Virus record (IMG/VR): IMGVR_UViG_3300048591_000865
Coordinates: 1-48,032 of that record
DNA: 48,032 nt
DNA from: a virus
Strand: one strand, 5' to 3'
A program made the translations under genes and the position numbers. The notes beneath the pieces were generated by a model. That model made no database searches. It saw only the letters and a program-made list of their open reading frames with translations, and had not been told where the DNA came from. Each line of letters opens with the position of its first letter. Position 1 is the first letter of the stretch. Of the stretch, positions 930-24,992 are shown piece after piece.

Positions 930-970
930 ATGATCGTACCAAAGTCAACTCCACGCCAAAGTCACGCTGA
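317..970 (+). CDS. Nested overlapping ORF, basic helical protein, 217 aa
   Basis: This frame stays open for 650 bp inside and past the 183-929 gene and also overlaps the first 41 bp of the next gene. Residues about 38-115 look like genuine protein: a strongly basic helical stretch with aromatic spacing (RQYWRDKYKRRRLYYHK, then DPDYKERKRAYQREWYERN), of the kind found before or within phage HNH-type DNA-binding proteins, followed by LSADELTRLVGKAL. The C-terminal 60 residues are Asn/Asp/Gly/Ser-rich and look like a frame shadow. GGGGAA at 302-307 is a possible ribosome binding site 9 bases before the ATG. Either both frames are coded (overprinting) or this is a long chance ORF; I favour real but am not certain. 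Confidence 0.45.
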   Translation: MVGKTKRIEVESNDGSERSTSKSEDGERSESEGVLPDLKDIEKLRQYWRDKYKRRRLYYHKLKMQKYRSDAEWRAKENKRRIRNEQKRVATDPDYKERKRAYQREWYERNREKHKESAYSNRRRRNPVTGLDTAIKACKRGDLSADELTRLVGKALVLANGSGERKSRRRCELQSGNRKLDESQNGNNQSDDRDHKDDKGNGGVDDRTKVNSTPKSR

Positions 971-1469
971 TACACTGAGACTTTTAGCTGCTCACAACAT
1001 TAAGGATAAGGTGGCAATCGTTGGAATCAGAGGATACTACAAAGACACGATGGGGAAAAAGGGTCAGAATGATCGCGGCATTTATGATGACGCTATCTTT
1101 ATCATTGCTCCTGAGTGTTACGTTTCTTTTAATGCTAATTGTGACCCAGGAGCTTTCCGAAAAGGCATCGCAAATCTTAAAGCAGGTGTCTGGAAATACA
1201 AAATAGGTGTTCATGGCCTCAGTAAACCAAAACCACTCAGATACAAAGCCTTGGTTCAGGCAGATAAGGTTACTGTCGCCCGTGACAATGTGGGTGACGA
1301 GACTGGATTTTTCGGTATTAACATACACCGGGGTCAACGTAGCTCTACGTCTTCCTTGGGTTGTCAAACAATCTACCCTGACCAGTGGAGTTCATTCATC
1401 GAGACTATTCAAGCTCAGCTTGAACGTCATGAACAGAGAGTGGTCCCTTACCTTTTGGTGGAGTTATGA
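930..1469 (+). CDS. L,D-transpeptidase-like peptidoglycan-active protein (endolysin candidate), 179 aa
   Basis: The C-terminal half carries NIHRG (His133) followed by SSLGCQTIYPDQW (Cys145). An H ... S-x-G-C arrangement is the hallmark of the YkuD-type L,D-transpeptidase fold, in which the Cys is the nucleophile. HGLSKPKPLRYKALVQA just before it fits the usual strand that positions the substrate. There is no signal peptide or transmembrane segment, so the protein would act on peptidoglycan only after membrane permeabilisation or from outside. GGGGGAG lies just before the ATG, and the gene overlaps the next by ATGA. No other endolysin is obvious in the genome, so a role in lysis is likely. The exact bond cleaved or formed is unknown. 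Confidence 0.6.
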   Translation: MIVPKSTPRQSHADTLRLLAAHNIKDKVAIVGIRGYYKDTMGKKGQNDRGIYDDAIFIIAPECYVSFNANCDPGAFRKGIANLKAGVWKYKIGVHGLSKPKPLRYKALVQADKVTVARDNVGDETGFFGINIHRGQRSSTSSLGCQTIYPDQWSSFIETIQAQLERHEQRVVPYLLVEL

Positions 1470-2171: not shown

Positions 2172-2861
2172 TTACGTCCCGTCTAAAGTAACTGCTGTTC
2201 GGTTTCCGTCAGCATCAACTGTAGCTGTAATCCTATTTTTTGTATCCAAAATGTCTCGAATTGTAACAGTCGTTGTTGCTGCACCTGAAAGTTTACCTGC
2301 CACTGCAGCCAAAATTATTCTCAAAGATTCCTGAAGGTCATAACCGGTTTCAACCTCTGTAGGAATAAGATCAGTTTTGGCTTTGATTGCTGCAACTTCA
2401 GTGTCAATGTAACCAATGATTGTATCCGTAGCTGCAGTAATTACAGAAGCATCTGCAGGGTCACTTGGAAGGTTGTCAGTCTTGGCTTTGATTGCTGCAA
2501 CTTCAGTATCTAAATAGCCTGCAATCGCGCTCAAAGATGAAATGATTGATGCGTCACTTTCCCCAGTTATATAATCCCTAACCTGCCATTTAAATTCCTG
2601 GGTATCTGCACCTGTGGAGTTTACCCGAAGAACCAAGTCTCCAAGTGTGTCTGTGTGATTCGTGTCGAAAGCAATTTGGTATCCACCAAAAGTTCTTTCT
2701 GTCACAGTTGGCGTCACCACGGAATATGCGCCACCGGCTTTACTTAAATTCATCGTCAGAGTCAGACCGGTTTTTCCCGTCGCGTGGTCTGTGGAATCTA
2801 TCATTGTGATCAGTACGTTTACTGATGTGCTTTTTTTAAGTTCGCCTTGATAGCTTCCCAT
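2172..2861 (-). CDS. Tail/appendage protein with repeated DTEVAAIKAKTD modules, 229 aa
   Basis: Last gene of the late operon. GGAG sits nine bases before the ATG. The first 110 residues are beta-rich (GKTGLTLTMNLSKAGGAYS, then GDLVLRVNSTGADT), a fold common in phage distal tail proteins. Two copies of DTEVAAIKAKTD-x-[LI]P follow, then ILAAVAGKLSGAATTTVTI and a C-terminal ATVDADGNRTAVTLDGT. These modules recur in many phage and prophage appendage proteins. The repeat exists at DNA level too (26-bp identical copies at 2377-2402 and 2482-2507). Likely a virion-attached fibre or accessory subunit; no receptor-binding domain can be named. Confidence 0.7.
   Translation of the reverse strand: MGSYQGELKKSTSVNVLITMIDSTDHATGKTGLTLTMNLSKAGGAYSVVTPTVTERTFGGYQIAFDTNHTDTLGDLVLRVNSTGADTQEFKWQVRDYITGESDASIISSLSAIAGYLDTEVAAIKAKTDNLPSDPADASVITAATDTIIGYIDTEVAAIKAKTDLIPTEVETGYDLQESLRIILAAVAGKLSGAATTTVTIRDILDTKNRITATVDADGNRTAVTLDGT
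2377..2507. repeat. 26-bp direct repeat inside the 229-aa tail gene
   Basis: The identical 26-base sequence at 2377-2402 and 2482-2507 encodes the repeated IDTEVAAIKAKTD module. The 105-bp period corresponds to 35 residues, so it reflects in-frame duplication of a protein module. Confidence 0.85.
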
Positions 2862-3616
2862 TAGACTCTACTCCTAGAATATTGCGCTGGACCATTATAG
2901 ACGGAAGCTGCTACGAGAGACGTTCTAGATGCACCATTAAGCGCACCGTTACCACTAACTAAAGCCGTATTTGCAGGGTCTTGATCACCATCGAAAAGTA
3001 CAAATTCATCAGGTTTCATATCACATGCGGCAACAACAGAATTGGAACCAAGTCCCAGGGATATTGAGTTCCAAGTGTAAATCCCAGTGCTTGCAGACAA
3101 CGCAAACCCTGCAGTCAATTGACCTTGAAGGGAGTTATCAATATAGAGTTTTCCGGCATTTGCCGTCGTAGTTCCGTCCCATTTTAAAAGAAAATCATAC
3201 AGGGTTCCTGCAGTATTTGCTGTCCAGTTTCCGAATGAAACGGCATTGAAGCAGTTTTGATTTGCTTCATTCTTAAGGGTGAAGATCAGCGCACCAGTAG
3301 TGACGTTATGTCGAAGCTCTAAAAAGATGCCTTGATTTCCAGCTCCACCAGTCAAATTGAAAAGTACTCGAGTTGCTGAAGGTGCTCCAGTGTAATTTGG
3401 GGCAAAGCGAAGAAGAATCGAAAAAGACCTAGTTGTTGAAACGTTATTTACACCACTCCAACAAATACCTTTGTTGGATGCGGCGTTGGTCATGTCGAAA
3501 TAATTTCCAGATAAAAAGCCAGCGTCAGCTGTAATGTTTACAGTACCAAAAGTGGTTCCGTTCTTAAAACCGCGAGAGTAATAAGCATCTTTACTGCTAG
3601 CTCTAACGGCGAACAT
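2861..3616 (-). CDS. LamG/concanavalin-like lectin-domain phage protein, 251 aa
   Basis: The product is a single beta-rich domain with the layout of LamG-like jelly rolls: GNYFDMTNAASNKGICWSG, a RSFSILLRFAP strand, LYDFLLKWDGTT, then GKLYIDNSLQGQLTAGF and NSISLGLGSNS. LamG domains bind carbohydrate or surface polymers, so adhesion to the host surface is the likely role. I choose ATG at 3616, with AGGTGG eight bases upstream, over the GTG at 3628. The stop overlaps the ATG of the next gene. No signal peptide. Family assignment is from pattern only; glycan specificity cannot be told. Confidence 0.65.
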   Translation of the reverse strand: MFAVRASSKDAYYSRGFKNGTTFGTVNITADAGFLSGNYFDMTNAASNKGICWSGVNNVSTTRSFSILLRFAPNYTGAPSATRVLFNLTGGAGNQGIFLELRHNVTTGALIFTLKNEANQNCFNAVSFGNWTANTAGTLYDFLLKWDGTTTANAGKLYIDNSLQGQLTAGFALSASTGIYTWNSISLGLGSNSVVAACDMKPDEFVLFDGDQDPANTALVSGNGALNGASRTSLVAASVYNGPAQYSRSRV

Positions 3617-3620
3617 TACG

Positions 3621-3755
3621 TCAGCCACCTAGTGCCTCGATTGCTTTTTGAATTGAATCTATATCTGCCTCGACCATACCTACTTGTTCATTAATTTCAG
3701 CAAGTAAGGTCATCTTGGAATCCAATTCGAATTGAAGTTTTTCAATATCATTCAT
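3621..3755 (-). CDS. Small coiled-coil protein, 44 aa
   Basis: A short ORF starts at ATG 3755 and ends with TGA at 3621, filling the gap between the lectin-like gene and the 159-aa coiled-coil gene. The product is almost one continuous amphipathic helix (KLQFELDSKMTLLAEINEQV ... QKAIEALGG) with heptad spacing of Leu, Ile and Met. The upstream gene is also coiled coil, so the two may associate. No family recognised. Its tight packing in the operon makes it probably real. Confidence 0.6.
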   Translation of the reverse strand: MNDIEKLQFELDSKMTLLAEINEQVGMVEADIDSIQKAIEALGG

Positions 3756-5214: not shown

Positions 5215-5262
5215 CTACAGTTCCACCCCAGAGAAAAGTAAAATTGCGATTAAAAGTTTCAT
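5215..5262 (-). CDS. Micro-ORF, 15-residue hydrophobic peptide
   Basis: ATG at 5262 overlaps the TAA of the 647-aa gene (TAATG) and follows AGGGGGAA, a strong ribosome binding site. The peptide MKLLIAILLFSGVEL looks like a bare signal or anchor sequence with no mature part. It ends one base before the ATG of the 67-aa membrane gene. It could be a translated lysis micropeptide, a leader that couples translation, or the relic of a deleted secreted protein. I cannot tell these apart. Confidence 0.4.
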   Translation of the reverse strand: MKLLIAILLFSGVEL

Positions 5263-7205
5263 TAGTTCCCCCTTGGTCCCATGCAGATGATGTTTACTGA
5301 CCCTGCGATTAATGCATCTGTTTTATCTCTTGTTTGAAATCTTATCAAAGAGCTACTCGGAGAAGATGCAAACATACAGGCAACAGTTTGTGACGAACCA
5401 TTGTCTACCGTACAATTGCAAGCGGGTGAAGTTCCAAATATTGCGGTATTCAGATTTAAGCTACAGTCCCCATTGTTATTATGTGTAGTAGATGATACCC
5501 AAGTTCCAGACTGGCTTGATATAGTGCAACTTCCACCAGCTGAAACAGCATTAACTCTTTCAATCCTCTCTAAGCCTGTCGAATTACTCGTCACACTTCC
5601 GACAAGCAAAGGCATTGGTGAAGCTGCGGTGAATGGGTACATACTTACGTGAATATTTCTTCCACCGCTAGCGCTTCCAGCACCGTCTGCTAAAATTAAA
5701 TTTGAATCAGGAGTCCCGTTAATTTGCTGCACGTACATTAGGCGAATTGCTTTTGTTCCTGCTGACGAAAAATTGAAAACTCCGCACACTTTATTTGGAT
5801 AATAATTATCCATATTTGTGCCGCCAGTATTTCCCTTGGCTCCACTCGTTATTGCCGAGCCACCAGCGGTTGTCAGTGTTTGTGCATTTGTTGGCGTTTC
5901 ATACGTTTGAAATACTGGAATTGCCTCAACATCACCGTCTGTTCTTGTATAGTGAGAAAAGCTAAAACATACATTATAAGTCCCGGCCCAGGGTATCGCT
6001 GTGTTAAACCCAATGTCCTCACTTCCAGCCGAGCACGTACTTGCGGAGGTGCTAGGGCTTGCAGCCGCATTGGTGGAGTCGCAAGTTATTCCCACGGCTG
6101 CGGAACCGCTTGATGGTGTAAGGGTCAAGGATGCGTCTGCTATGTCGATATATGAAGTCCGAATGCTTGTACCTAATGAAATATTTGCCCCGGTAATTTT
6201 AGCATCAACATACCAAGGTGTGTTGTTGTCATTCACGACAGCTTGTGCGCCCCAGCCGACAATTGGCAAAGGATTGGTCGTAAGCCTAATAGCATCGTTG
6301 TTAGTGAAAGTTCCTGGAGCTGCCTGGGTAACGGCAAGCCCAGCGTTGGTCATTACAAAAATTGCCGTCGTTGAGCTTGCGGGTACAGCCCGAACATATC
6401 CTACGGTTCCTGATCCGGCAGAAACTATCGCAGCCGGACCTAGAGTTGCTACTGTTGAAATCTTGGTAGAGTCTATAGCTAAACCTGTCGGCAGGTTGAC
6501 GCTTAAGTTTGCCGATGTCGGCGTTCCCGTAATGGCCAAATTTATTTCTAACTCAATCGAGTCGCCGACCCGTCGGTACTTACAATTGTAAGTCGTATTA
6601 GCGACCCAGCTACCTGTGCACGTGTACGACTCCCACGGCCCGATCTGATTCGCTACGCCTAAATTCGTAGCCTGTCCCCAATACACTCGACCGATATTTA
6701 CAGCCGCACCTGTGCCGGATTCTGTCTGTGTTAGGCGAACAGTGCGAGTGGTGCCGCAAGGATAGTTCACACTTACAGCAGACCAATCGCTTGCGTTTGC
6801 TAAAACCGCACTTGAAGTGACTACGTTTGAGCCATCGTGAATTTGTAATTTGTAAAGTGAAGCATCACCCTTGAACACTGCTTTAGCTTCGCAGTTTCCG
6901 GTCTTGTCGCCTTCTTGGATTGTCTTAGAATCCCACTCGCAGTATCCGTTTTGTGCGGAAGCATCGCAGACCAAACTTGCCACGCCATCAAGTAAGTCAC
7001 TTGAACCAGTCACGTCTTGCGCGATGGTGGCGCTTGAAGTTGTGACGTTCAGAGCATTCTTAAAGCCGCTTGGATTGATGACATAGTTTACTTTGGAATC
7101 TTGACTCTCAACAATATCAGGACGTGAAAACTTCATGCTTTGTGCAAAAGCTGGAGTGCAATGAGAGAAAACTAAAAGTGCGGATAAGAAAATTCTATTT
7201 AACAT
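5262..7205 (-). CDS. Large secreted beta-rich fibre/adhesin-like protein with Sec signal peptide, 647 aa
   Basis: The start at ATG 7205 gives a textbook Sec signal: positive start (MLNR), hydrophobic core IFLSALLVFSHC, and a PAFA/QS cleavage site near residue 22. The TTG at 7220 would put extra residues before the signal, so I reject it. The mature part is Ser/Thr/Ala/Gly-rich and beta-predicted, with repeated modules: a WESYTCTGSWVANTTYNCKY segment, an LTLTPSSGSAAV segment, NICFSF-like strands, and a C-terminal Cys-containing block (GGSCTISSQSGTWVSSTTHN). Paired Cys residues suggest disulphides formed in the periplasm. It follows another signal-bearing gene with an 11-bp overlap. Position implies an appendage or fibre, but the signal peptide implies export by the infected cell, which is odd for a virion part. 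Confidence 0.72.
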   Translation of the reverse strand: MLNRIFLSALLVFSHCTPAFAQSMKFSRPDIVESQDSKVNYVINPSGFKNALNVTTSSATIAQDVTGSSDLLDGVASLVCDASAQNGYCEWDSKTIQEGDKTGNCEAKAVFKGDASLYKLQIHDGSNVVTSSAVLANASDWSAVSVNYPCGTTRTVRLTQTESGTGAAVNIGRVYWGQATNLGVANQIGPWESYTCTGSWVANTTYNCKYRRVGDSIELEINLAITGTPTSANLSVNLPTGLAIDSTKISTVATLGPAAIVSAGSGTVGYVRAVPASSTTAIFVMTNAGLAVTQAAPGTFTNNDAIRLTTNPLPIVGWGAQAVVNDNNTPWYVDAKITGANISLGTSIRTSYIDIADASLTLTPSSGSAAVGITCDSTNAAASPSTSASTCSAGSEDIGFNTAIPWAGTYNVCFSFSHYTRTDGDVEAIPVFQTYETPTNAQTLTTAGGSAITSGAKGNTGGTNMDNYYPNKVCGVFNFSSAGTKAIRLMYVQQINGTPDSNLILADGAGSASGGRNIHVSMYPFTAASPMPLLVGSVTSNSTGLERIERVNAVSAGGSCTISSQSGTWVSSTTHNNNGDCSLNLNTAIFGTSPACNCTVDNGSSQTVACMFASSPSSSLIRFQTRDKTDALIAGSVNIICMGPRGN

Positions 7206-8403
7206 AAATATACCTATCAATTGTTGAGTTATAACGAAACTGCGCTACCTCATATTTATAAAGTGTCAGCGTTCCAAAATTCCCAACACAGCCTTTTGCT
7301 GAGTCAGTCCATGTGATTGAAACCGGATCTGTGTCGCTATTTCCGATTAATTCAATCAGCGTCCCATCAAGCGGCGCAGATGAACCAAAAGGTGTCGTGG
7401 ACATTGTTATCGCACCGCTATTTCCTTGAACGCGGTATGATTGATTTAAACTAATAAGCGAGATCGCTAAAGTATCTGAAGCAGTCATTGTCAGATCTGA
7501 GCCGACAGTGATTGAACCACCACCACCTGACCCGCCAATAATTCTCCAGCGAGATGAAGTGGAATCGTACAATAACCAAATACTAGCCGTATTTGCGACT
7601 GAAATGTCAGAACCTGAACCTGTGATAATTCTATCCGCTGCTGTCGCTGTGGCGTCATTGATGATTGTAACCGCTGAACCTGTAGCGTTTACCCAAACAA
7701 AAAACTGCTCATTACTTGGTGCTGTGAAACCTGCGATCGATGTAACTGCACCTGTAGACCTGACAACTGACTTGGTAGGTGTAGCAATCGTCTGATTTGC
7801 TCCAGCTGTTACATCGGCTACAATGTCGCCATGAAGCGCACCTGTTAAACTTACGTTGGCGATTGTTAATTGGTTTGCGGTATCGTCAAAAGCGAAGTTC
7901 GTATTGTCTTCACCGAAAGCACTTGTTGATGCTGCGAAAACTACAGAATTCGCAGACCATGTGGGTTTATTGGAACCGCCGTTCGCAGTCGGTAAAATAC
8001 TTGAACCCACCAAAGCACTTTGGGATAGATCAATTGAACCGTATCCTGGAGTGGTTGCACCCATTCTCAATACTTCATATTGAGAACCTGCAGCTAGTGT
8101 CGAGGGTGCTGCACCCGCACCACCGCCAATAATTAATTGATCTACAGTCAGTGCACCTGATGAAGCGATGGTTGTACCGGCTGAGAAATAAGGGACACCT
8201 CCGCTTGTACCGGAAGCTATTCCAGTACCTCCGTTTGGTACTGCTAAAACAGATGAGCCAACTGCAGCCGAAGCAGCTAAATTTACTGACCCCATCCGAG
8301 CTTTACCGCCACCGGAAGGAACTCGCATTACTGAATTTGCCGGACCTGTTTCTTGGGCCAACACATTTAAACTGAATAATAAACTTAAGATAAAATATTT
8401 CAT
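7195..8403 (-). CDS. Tail-fibre-like protein with Sec signal peptide, 402 aa
   Basis: ATG at 8403, directly after the fibre-base stop, gives MKYFILSLLFSLNVLAQ, a short Sec signal with cleavage after LA. The longer ORF start at 8469 would bury this signal, so I reject it. The mature part has the NGGTG-x-ASGTSGGVPYFSAG motif typical of phage tail fibres and repeated AxxGSSxLxxxNGG units (residues about 45-60 and 130-145), then DNTNFAFDDTANQLTI and a C-terminal beta domain ending FRYNSTIDRYIYVK. It lies immediately after the gp17-like fibre base, so it is probably the distal fibre. Combination of a fibre motif with a signal peptide is unusual. Confidence 0.72.
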   Translation of the reverse strand: MKYFILSLLFSLNVLAQETGPANSVMRVPSGGGKARMGSVNLAASAAVGSSVLAVPNGGTGIASGTSGGVPYFSAGTTIASSGALTVDQLIIGGGAGAAPSTLAAGSQYEVLRMGATTPGYGSIDLSQSALVGSSILPTANGGSNKPTWSANSVVFAASTSAFGEDNTNFAFDDTANQLTIANVSLTGALHGDIVADVTAGANQTIATPTKSVVRSTGAVTSIAGFTAPSNEQFFVWVNATGSAVTIINDATATAADRIITGSGSDISVANTASIWLLYDSTSSRWRIIGGSGGGGSITVGSDLTMTASDTLAISLISLNQSYRVQGNSGAITMSTTPFGSSAPLDGTLIELIGNSDTDPVSITWTDSAKGCVGNFGTLTLYKYEVAQFRYNSTIDRYIYVK

Positions 8404-8404
8404 A

Positions 8405-9616
8405 TTAATCCGCCCAGTACCAATCTCCGCCGATGGCTTTAACCACTCGTCGAGTCCATTGATATTCAATTACAGGGTTTACTTCACCACTCACAGTTCC
8501 TGTGATTGTGACAGTGTTTACGCTATTATCAATTTTAATCACTTCATACATTAAACCGTCATCTGTAGGGTCTGCAATTGTTGGTAATGTAAGTGATTGA
8601 TTCCCTGCCGTCGCGTCGAAACGATAACTTGCAGACGATAAAGGGCCTGGTGCTGGAGACTCAGCACCTGCAGCAGTAATGGTCGGCACATAAGTGAAAA
8701 CTCCGAAGACCGCTGCGGCTGCTGCAGCTTCAGATAATGCGGCGGCTGCAGCACTGGCTGCGGCTGCAAGCTCAGAAGCTGCAGCTAAATTTTGAGAGTT
8801 TAGAGCGGCTGCGGCTGCGACTTCAGCGTTGTTCTCTGCGGTCTCAGCATTTGTCTCTGCGGTCTCAGCATTATTCTCACTAACCAAGGCGGCGGCGGCA
8901 CTGGCAGCTGCATTTGCTGCGCTTGTACCTGCAAGGATTCTGTCAGCACTTGCTTCAGCGGCACTTGTTGCAGCGTCCTCTGCAGAGTTTGCAGCATTGT
9001 CCTCAGAGATCTCAGCGGCATTTGATGCTGCAACGGCTGTAGCTTCAGCAGCTTGTGCACCGTCTTCAGCAGCCTCTGCAGCGGCAACCAACCCTTCAAG
9101 GTAAGGAACACTTGGACCAAGAACAAACTGATCACCAGTAGGACTGATGGCTAATAAGGTATCTTCGGCAACATCATCAAGCTCAGCATTAAAATCGACA
9201 GCGTCTAAAACCTTCTCAGGTAATTTTAGAGATCTACCTACCAAATAACTAAGACGTTGGATTTGCCCGACAACCACATCAAGAGCTGCTTCAAATCGCT
9301 TGAGTGTAAAATCCCGCTTATCACGAAATTCAACTTCTTGAAGTGGAGTGTCGTTGGCTTGAAGGATAACCATGTTATGATTAGCCGGAAGATCATCAAC
9401 TAGGACAATCTCACCACCACCGTCAACCGCATCAACTACGCAAGACGTGAGATAGGTTGTATCAGTTCCACGAACTCTGAAAGTCTCAACCCCATCTTCA
9501 TCGTAAACAGCGACAAGGACTTGTGCGGCAGAGGCAACTTTAAAACCAAAAGAATAAGTGTCGAGTGAACCAGTACCGACATACTCTTCCCTGGGTCTGT
9601 ATTCTGTAATAGCCAT
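8405..9616 (-). CDS. T7 gp17-like tail fibre base with Ala-rich coiled coil, 403 aa
   Basis: Residues 1-150 match the N-terminal virion-attachment domain of T7 gp17-like fibres: YVGTGSLDTYSFGFKV, YDEDGVETFRVRG, then DKRDFTLKRFEAALDVVVGQIQRL. Residues about 175-300 are an alanine-rich heptad region (AAEAAEDGAQAAEATAVAAS and similar) forming a trimeric coiled-coil shaft. It includes a 21-bp tandem DNA repeat (about 8833-8874) encoding ETNAETA-type units. The last 100 residues are a small beta domain ending GGDWYWAD, shorter than a full receptor-binding tip. This protein is likely an adaptor to which the two downstream fibre-like proteins attach. AAAGGA precedes the ATG. Confidence 0.82.
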   Translation of the reverse strand: MAITEYRPREEYVGTGSLDTYSFGFKVASAAQVLVAVYDEDGVETFRVRGTDTTYLTSCVVDAVDGGGEIVLVDDLPANHNMVILQANDTPLQEVEFRDKRDFTLKRFEAALDVVVGQIQRLSYLVGRSLKLPEKVLDAVDFNAELDDVAEDTLLAISPTGDQFVLGPSVPYLEGLVAAAEAAEDGAQAAEATAVAASNAAEISEDNAANSAEDAATSAAEASADRILAGTSAANAAASAAAALVSENNAETAETNAETAENNAEVAAAAALNSQNLAAASELAAAASAAAAALSEAAAAAAVFGVFTYVPTITAAGAESPAPGPLSSASYRFDATAGNQSLTLPTIADPTDDGLMYEVIKIDNSVNTVTITGTVSGEVNPVIEYQWTRRVVKAIGGDWYWAD

Positions 9617-23975: not shown

Positions 23976-24992
23976 TTAGTTTACGTCAGTTACAACGCCA
24001 TTGTGCGCGATAACTGCCCACAAGTTTGCGCCGATAGCTTCCAAAGTTACAGAAGAACCGATGTCAGTGATACGAATCGCATCACCTGCCGCAGGTGTAA
24101 TGGTAGCTCCTGAAGAAGTAACATGTGCAATTTGGTCAGTACCATCTGCAGGATTGATGTCAAAGTCGTCAGCTGTTCCAGCAATAAAGGTAAGTCGGCA
24201 ACCTAAAACTGTCGAAGCTTCAGGGAGTGTCATTACATCAGCACTGTTTGAAACAAGTGATTGACCACATTGAGCTGCAGTGATGGCCGCAGTTGTAGAA
24301 GCCGTTTGAAGTTGCAAGAAGCCGCTTAAACTGTCACCACCATCACCAGTGATTCCACCAGTCAAAGTCATATCGCCGTCAGCAGCCGCAACAGTAATTT
24401 TAGCAACTTGTGAACCTGAAGCGTCATTGGAAAGAGTGAAAGAGTTGTCTGAAGCAACAGAACCTAACAACCAGTCATCGCCGTTGTCGTCTGATTCATC
24501 GGCTTTAAGTGTGATGTTTGCGTTGGTAGCTTCAAAAGCCACAACGTTTACATTGGCTGCGGCATCATCAAAACCAAAGCTGATTGCATCGGTAGCATTT
24601 GTAACTGTCTCGCTGTCAGCTAAAGTCAAAACTCCCGCTGTAGAGATTGTCAGTTTGGCAACTTGAGCACCTGAAACGTTATTGCTAAAGCTTAAAGCGT
24701 TTCCAGAAGCTGCTACAGTTGCTGCCCAGTCATCACCGCTGTCATCGGAATTATCCGCTGCCAAAGTGAAAACGATGTCTGTTGCATTCGCTGCAGTCAA
24801 ACTTACGTTTCCTGCCAGGGTAGGCGAAGAAATCATACTGAAGTCATTTCCAACACGCGAGCAAGTCAGGCCGGAACCGCACTTAATCGAATTGAAAATA
24901 CCTAAATTCGTGGTCGATTGATACCCACGAAAGCCTGCAATAGCGAGTACGCTAAAGAGTAAAATTGCGACGGTAAGCGTGATTTTTTTCAT
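23976..24992 (-). CDS. Secreted repeat protein inside the head module, 338 aa
   Basis: MKKITLTVAILLFSVLAIAG is a clear Sec signal peptide. Then FRGYQSTTNLGIFNSIKCG and GLTCSRVGNDFSMISSPTL, a trimerisation-like opening seen in fibre proteins. Two repeats follow: one with ADNSDDSGDDWAA and SFSNNVSGAQVAKLTI, one with ADESDDNGDDWLL and TLSNDASGSQVAKITV. The C-terminal part (GCRLTFIAGTADDFDINPAD) is beta-rich and ends in GANLWAVIAHNG, like fibre tips. AAAGGG lies before the ATG. It is placed between portal and scaffold where no secreted protein is expected. The role could be a capsid-attached fibre or a host-surface protein made late in infection. Confidence 0.75.
   Translation of the reverse strand: MKKITLTVAILLFSVLAIAGFRGYQSTTNLGIFNSIKCGSGLTCSRVGNDFSMISSPTLAGNVSLTAANATDIVFTLAADNSDDSGDDWAATVAASGNALSFSNNVSGAQVAKLTISTAGVLTLADSETVTNATDAISFGFDDAAANVNVVAFEATNANITLKADESDDNGDDWLLGSVASDNSFTLSNDASGSQVAKITVAAADGDMTLTGGITGDGGDSLSGFLQLQTASTTAAITAAQCGQSLVSNSADVMTLPEASTVLGCRLTFIAGTADDFDINPADGTDQIAHVTSSGATITPAAGDAIRITDIGSSVTLEAIGANLWAVIAHNGVVTDVN

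Follow-up and report, generated by a model that had tools for sequence, protein, structure and literature searches.

Tail fibers are normally assembled in the cytoplasm, where tailed phages are thought to complete their assembly before lysis. The T7 gp17 fiber is synthesized and assembled there, and the fibers and tailspikes of T4 and P22 are likewise cytoplasmic and carry no signals; they can be added in vitro, and finished particles accept fibers outside the cell. Sec-exported fibers have been described on predatory bacteria: the MAT proteins are trimeric fibers with Sec signals and S74, TNF-like or lectin tips that are displayed on Bdellovibrio, and their defining trait is a conserved, beta-rich N-domain of ~130 aa that follows the signal (PMC10769870). 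For phage fibers, no system with signal peptides appeared in the literature covered, which comprised titles and abstracts and few subscription papers. In this study, we have found that fiber-like proteins of numerous related phages have conserved export signals. These signals suggest that some of the virion forms outside the cytoplasm and is joined to the remainder later.

The window, that is, the whole 48,032-nt stretch of IMG/VR virus record IMGVR_UViG_3300048591_000865, carries a podovirus-type virion module on its minus strand, with terminase, head-tail adaptor (portal), protease, major head protein, and tail protein genes. In this module, a 1,951-aa internal protein is followed by a gp17-like base, a 402-aa protein, a 647-aa protein, and small membrane proteins (Table 1). 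The preliminary description had placed two fiber- or adhesin-like proteins in the virion operon, directly after a gp17-like base, and both this arrangement and its coordinates were correct; the two genes lie in the tail module. Residues 1 to 149 of the base match the T7-type fiber N-terminal families PHROG 5510, 1640, and 13893, and its coil matches PHROG 1419/24159; despite this gp17-like N-domain, a Pfam search of the 403-aa protein gave no match. Its counterpart in the sister phage G002 is 44-47% identical. As in T7, a gp17-like N-domain and coiled coil are combined with distal adhesive modules in a gene position after the internal virion proteins; unlike in T7, the distal part is located on separate genes with predicted cleavable Sec signals, and the 647-aa protein has many cysteines. 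The genes are tightly packed, the ATG of the 402-aa ORF (8403-8401) lying one base past the gp17-like stop (8407-8405) and the ATG of the 647-aa ORF (7205-7203) overlapping the stop of the 402-aa ORF. A split or frameshifted fiber gene was considered and ruled out, since the domains are complete in both neighbors and the IMG/VR sequence L007 has the same order.

Table 1. Features of the fiber locus and of P0015 in the window (a slash marks the predicted cleavage site)
Feature	Position	Strand	Evidence
Internal virion protein, 1,951 aa	9631-15486	-	Weak LPD22 and transglycosylase-like matches
gp17-like tail fiber base, 403 aa, without signal	8405..9616	-	N-domain of T7 type, Ala-rich coiled coil, distinct type of beta tip
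Predicted exported fiber-like protein P0001, 402 aa	7195..8403	-	ORF; G008 relative; tip matches gp17-like fibers
Predicted Sec signal of 402-aa protein, MKYFILSLLFSLNVLA/Q	8356..8403	-	Rule-based test; G002 signal at same place
C-terminal tip domain of 402-aa protein, residues ~300-402	7198..7506	-	P0013 identity; HMM matches
Predicted exported fiber-like adhesin P0002, 647 aa	5262..7205	-	ORF; phi1422 gp68 and L007 P0009 relatives
Predicted Sec signal of 647-aa protein, MLNRIFLSALLVFSHCTPAFA/Q	7143..7205	-	Rule-based test; also in L007 and phi1422 homologues
Carbohydrate-binding-module-like beta sandwich (lead), residues ~28-190 of 647-aa protein	6636..7124	-	Common to L007 and phi1422; Foldseek
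Shared adhesive module, residues ~188-328 of 647-aa protein	6222..6644	-	Exported fibers of ~10 phages and 2 nonexported fibers
Cys-containing C-terminal tip, residues ~526-645 of 647-aa protein	5271..5630	-	HMM common to G007, G031, G013, and G016 exported fibers
Mini-ORF, 15 aa, MKLLIAILLFSGVEL	5215..5262	-	TAATG: begins on stop of 647-aa gene
P0015, predicted exported fiber-like protein, 338 aa, directly after portal gene	23976..24992	-	Signal, relatives, capsid-spike-like fold
Predicted Sec signal of P0015, MKKITLTVAILLFSVLAIA/G	24936..24992	-	Rule-based test; conserved in relatives

Signals were called by a home-made, rule-based Sec/SPI test combined with conservation among relatives. The N termini of the 402-aa and 647-aa proteins have a short positive N-region, a hydrophobic core, and an A-x-A-like site (VLA/Q and AFA/Q, respectively), and the rule was positive in only 3 of the 58 ORFs in the window: these two and P0015 (24992-23976). 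Shuffled N termini passed it in 28 of 3,540 cases (0.8%). Signals are present at the homologous start in gp68 of the Bdellovibrio phage phi1422, in L007, in the uncultured podovirus MW202898, in G002, and in most sister phages with a gp17-like base; the G002 protein, whose signal is MKFLILSLFLLTQIVSA/S, starts where the 402-aa protein does relative to gp17, and in MW202898 the signal starts at an internal ATG, 11 codons past the annotated start. Sec export of both proteins is therefore well supported by rule-based prediction and by recurrence in relatives, and the textbook signals that had been proposed for them are confirmed; however, the second signal is 21 residues long rather than 22, and the count of two signal-bearing proteins, each of which is real, was incomplete, because P0015 is a third. 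The two proteins thus lack the usual fiber trait of cytoplasmic synthesis without a signal, a trait that is usual rather than strictly defining.

The association of an exported protein with the fiber base extends well beyond the window. Sister phages were picked by their portal (mostly 52-76% identity; none cultured; among INPHARED portals the best match has ~30% identity), the gp17-like base was located in their contigs, many of which are fragments, and the next gene was read. That gene encoded a fiber-like protein with a Sec signal in 15 of the 16 close relatives in which it was readable (the window, G002, L015, G019, G014, G009, G015, G013, G016, G007, G008, G010, G011, G017, and G031); the sole exception was G012. 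More distant gp17-like phages mostly have no exported next gene (G026, G030, G032, L017, L018, L020, and L021); those that have one are G028, G029, and MW202898. The exported proteins differ in sequence and have no single N-domain that unites them, but fiber features recur among them, including an S74 chaperone in G002, C1q in G009, and tail fiber PHROGs in G013. In G002 (L011:2552-7159), five signal-bearing genes follow gp17, among them an S74 fiber and a LamG-domain protein.

Pfam and PHROG searches of the 402-aa and 647-aa proteins gave no family match, single-protein searches of the 402-aa protein in INPHARED and IMG/VR gave no relative, and a PDB search of it gave a poor match only. Their fiber character is nevertheless well supported by comparison with individual relatives. 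Residues 41 to 158 of the 402-aa protein are 58% identical to the exported fiber of G008, its tip is 37% identical to that of the cytosolic fiber P0013 (E = 2e-31), and an HMM of the tip matches gp17-like proteins of G009, G019, G016, G018, L015, G008, and MW202898; in relatives, a tip of this type ends nonexported fiber bases directly upstream of the exported fiber gene. The C-terminal 200 residues are common to a nonexported L007 fiber that precedes a homologue of the 647-aa protein. As the L007 fiber has the most similar tip, and both proteins are encoded just upstream of 647-aa homologues, a chain is suggested in which the 403-aa base, the 402-aa protein, and the 647-aa protein likely follow one another in this order.

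Covariation among the sister phages bears on how such a chain may be joined. Similarity of the C-terminal tip of the base tracks similarity of the mature N terminus of the downstream exported protein (Mantel r = 0.55, P = 2e-4, 18 phages; r = 0.54 when partial on the base N-domain), whereas the base tip and the C terminus of the distal fiber gave r = 0.05. In the 13 phages whose third gene could be read, the correlation between base tip and exported N terminus was 0.84 (P ≤ 2e-4; 0.74 without G012). Simple adjacency was rejected as the source of this covariation, because the next, equally adjacent gene boundary shows none (distal C terminus against the next gene in the same 13 phages, r = -0.02). 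The covariation argues for physical contact between the base and the exported fiber, with comoving modules as the alternative. Docking of the exported fiber on the base is thus supported indirectly, from other phages, as the base tip of the window belongs to none of the covarying classes.

A second indication comes from two sister phages that share the same tail protein N-domain. The exported fiber of G013 consists of a signal plus GIPLSTNFTVNTALPIEDR, with tail families PHROG 25379 and 24134 on the N-domain, whereas two fibers of G012 begin with M plus GIPLGSNF or GIQLGSNF and have no signal; the junction is the cleavage site, and the signal therefore appears to be an add-on to a tail protein. 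The G012 fibers also show that such an N-domain can occur without a signal, which would suit a reading in which the hydrophobic N termini are not cleaved signals at all, either because translation starts downstream or because the segment is retained in the virion. We regard this as very improbable, however, since the conserved start codons abut or overlap the stop of the preceding gene, conservation extends to the A-x-A site and to the Q or G at +1, and the even cysteine counts and co-occurring pairs described below require an oxidizing compartment.

Relatives of the 647-aa protein were found by tblastn in phi1422 (gp68, AFC22588, annotated as hypothetical; 27% identity over residues 40 to 318) and in MW202898, and an IMG/VR scan added L007 P0009 (44% identity). 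All three have a signal, and each is encoded directly after a nonexported fiber gene; the L007 homologue ends in a phage tail-collar domain. The gp68 gene directly follows the tail fiber gene gp67, as the 647-aa gene follows a fiber gene here; unlike the window, phi1422 is a myovirus, with one exported fiber at that place and a different C terminus. The passages covered of the paper on phi1422 (PMC3391216) contain no mention of a gp68 signal. Foldseek matches of the 647-aa model to CBM35, CBM4, CBM6, and CBM22 provide a lead to a carbohydrate-binding module, the model being of low confidence (AlphaFold pLDDT 41). The profile of the module at residues 188 to 328 also matches the C terminus of the nonexported gp17-like fiber of G030 (47 bits) and the nonexported fiber of L009 (52 bits), against a maximum of 10 bits for shuffled sequences; the profile search alone detects this module, as BLASTP with the 647-aa protein as the query gave no match in the G030 fiber. 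The same module occurs in a 163-aa exported protein (L062:5098-5589) encoded between a portal gene and a P0015-type gene.

Because the tip of the 402-aa protein and this module are common to nonexported virion fibers, the exported proteins could bind the same receptors, and they might act as decoys that occupy the phage receptor against superinfection or against loss of progeny on debris. T5 Llp is an example of receptor blocking, and export to the envelope would fit such a role. The proteins are, however, large multidomain fibers, the covariation with the base tip is seen at their N terminus, where docking would occur, and not at their distal end, and the base would have to adsorb alone; a decoy is therefore distinctly unlikely.

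The cysteines also bear on export. The mature 647-aa protein has 16; the 402-aa protein has one, so disulfides are uninformative for it. Exported fibers have 0.92 Cys per 100 residues, compared with 0.37 for nonexported fibers (P = 4e-8, a value that treats residues as independent), and the other virion proteins of the window have 0.35. Within the family of the 647-aa protein, loss of C80/C90 and of C196/C208 is pairwise, as judged by eye. Periplasmic folding of the Cys-rich 647-aa protein, which had been proposed from its Cys-rich modules, is well supported.

The clearest pattern of cysteines was seen in the family of P0015. This family comprises 82 loci (57 nonidentical), and on contigs that include the portal gene the locus nearly always follows it directly; INPHARED phages yielded no relative. 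The rule detected a signal at 80 of the 82 loci, and the signals of the remaining 2 are evident by eye. All 48 mature aligned sequences have 2, 4, or 6 cysteines; columns C38/C44 are both present in 42 and both missing in 6, and the optional pair 271/308 is present in 20 and absent in 28. Even numbers and co-occurring pairs indicate disulfides, hence an oxidizing compartment and real export. The P0015 model (pLDDT 78; C-domain 91-96) has as its top PDB match a capsid spike, from Pseudomonas phage Pa223 (9ny6; E = 5e-6, TM about 0.25-0.28), followed by tailspike parts, and a viral structure library returned phage proteins, several of them fibers. P0015 may accordingly be an exported head spike: its gene place between the portal and head genes fits, but the match is weak, and P0015 differs from the Pa223 spike in its Sec signal and its conserved pairs of cysteines.

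The preliminary description had not decided between assembly of the exported proteins on the virion and a coat on infected cells. We favor the virion, because of the covariation with the base, the G013/G012 pair, and the fusion of the 647-aa module to a nonexported fiber in G030; fiber or receptor-binding domains (S74, tail collar, C1q, and tail PHROGs) are present on exported relatives. Their resemblance to the surface-displayed MAT fibers counts against it. MATs, compared here by description, appear to be the closest in appearance: like the exported relatives in the phages, they combine a Sec signal, a fiber, and swappable tips (S74 and C1q/TNF-like). The exported proteins might then be adhesins displayed on infected-cell envelopes, serving prey adhesion if the host is predatory, a role with which the relative of the 647-aa protein in a Bdellovibrio phage would agree. 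We consider this role unlikely, as the genes lie in a virion operon and their products track the fiber base, the N-domains vary and follow that base where those of MATs are conserved, and late expression, as the operon implies, would leave little time for cell adhesion.

Phi1422 is the sole link to Bdellovibrio as host. A 179-aa peptidase-like protein at the genome end (930-1469, plus strand) is 57% identical to phi1422 gp76, but a genome scan with it gave relatives of 41-49% identity in Bacteroidota, Nitrospirae, and other metagenome-assembled genomes and no match in Bdellovibrionota; with relatives in unrelated phyla, it is no guide to the host. The N-domain of the 647-aa protein had no match in a genome scan, and a control scan with S74 gave a signal in E. 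coli only.

It can be envisioned that the 402-aa and 647-aa proteins, as receptor-binding or adhesin segments, would pass through Sec, have their signals removed by signal peptidase I, and fold outside the cytoplasm, the latter with disulfides; host lysis would bring virions and exported fibers together, and the fibers would then dock on the base. That the two are distal tail fiber parts that dock on the gp17-like base after release is, in our view, somewhat probable; the timing (during or after lysis), the place, the order of the chain, and receptor binding are inferred only. Addition of fibers to T4 and P22 in vitro likewise joins a particle to a separately added fiber, with the difference that signals are present only here. 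Dilution of the fibers can be raised against docking after lysis, as can the usual cytoplasmic assembly of tail fibers and the possibility that the covariation arises from modules that move jointly. A predator host that grows within a closed prey cell would, on lysis, free virions and fibers into one small space, which is speculation. The wider proposal, that these uncultured podoviruses build two-compartment virions, with cytoplasmic heads, tails, and bases joined after lysis to Sec-exported, disulfide-bonded fibers and capsid spikes, is tentative, and we give it slightly under an even chance.

If they are virion parts, exported disulfide-bonded fibers would represent a new assembly route, Cys-rich adhesive domains would be possible on virions, exported fibers could be shared among virions or transferred to the surface of the host, and phage fibers would be linked in sequence to the secreted fiber adhesins of predatory bacteria. 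The cultured phage phi1422 makes the trait testable now.

Several minor features were observed near such loci. A 255-aa protein of the window (2861-3628, minus strand) is LamG-type lectin-like by eye, with no Pfam match and no signal. Four signal-bearing proteins follow the fiber in the G028 contig (L145, oriented genes 1, 4, 5, and 6), one of them LamG-like by eye. Finally, the mini-ORF MKLLIAILLFSGVEL encodes a bare signal-like peptide, perhaps a coupling peptide or the remnant of an exported protein such as the one of ~107 aa that G002 encodes at that place.
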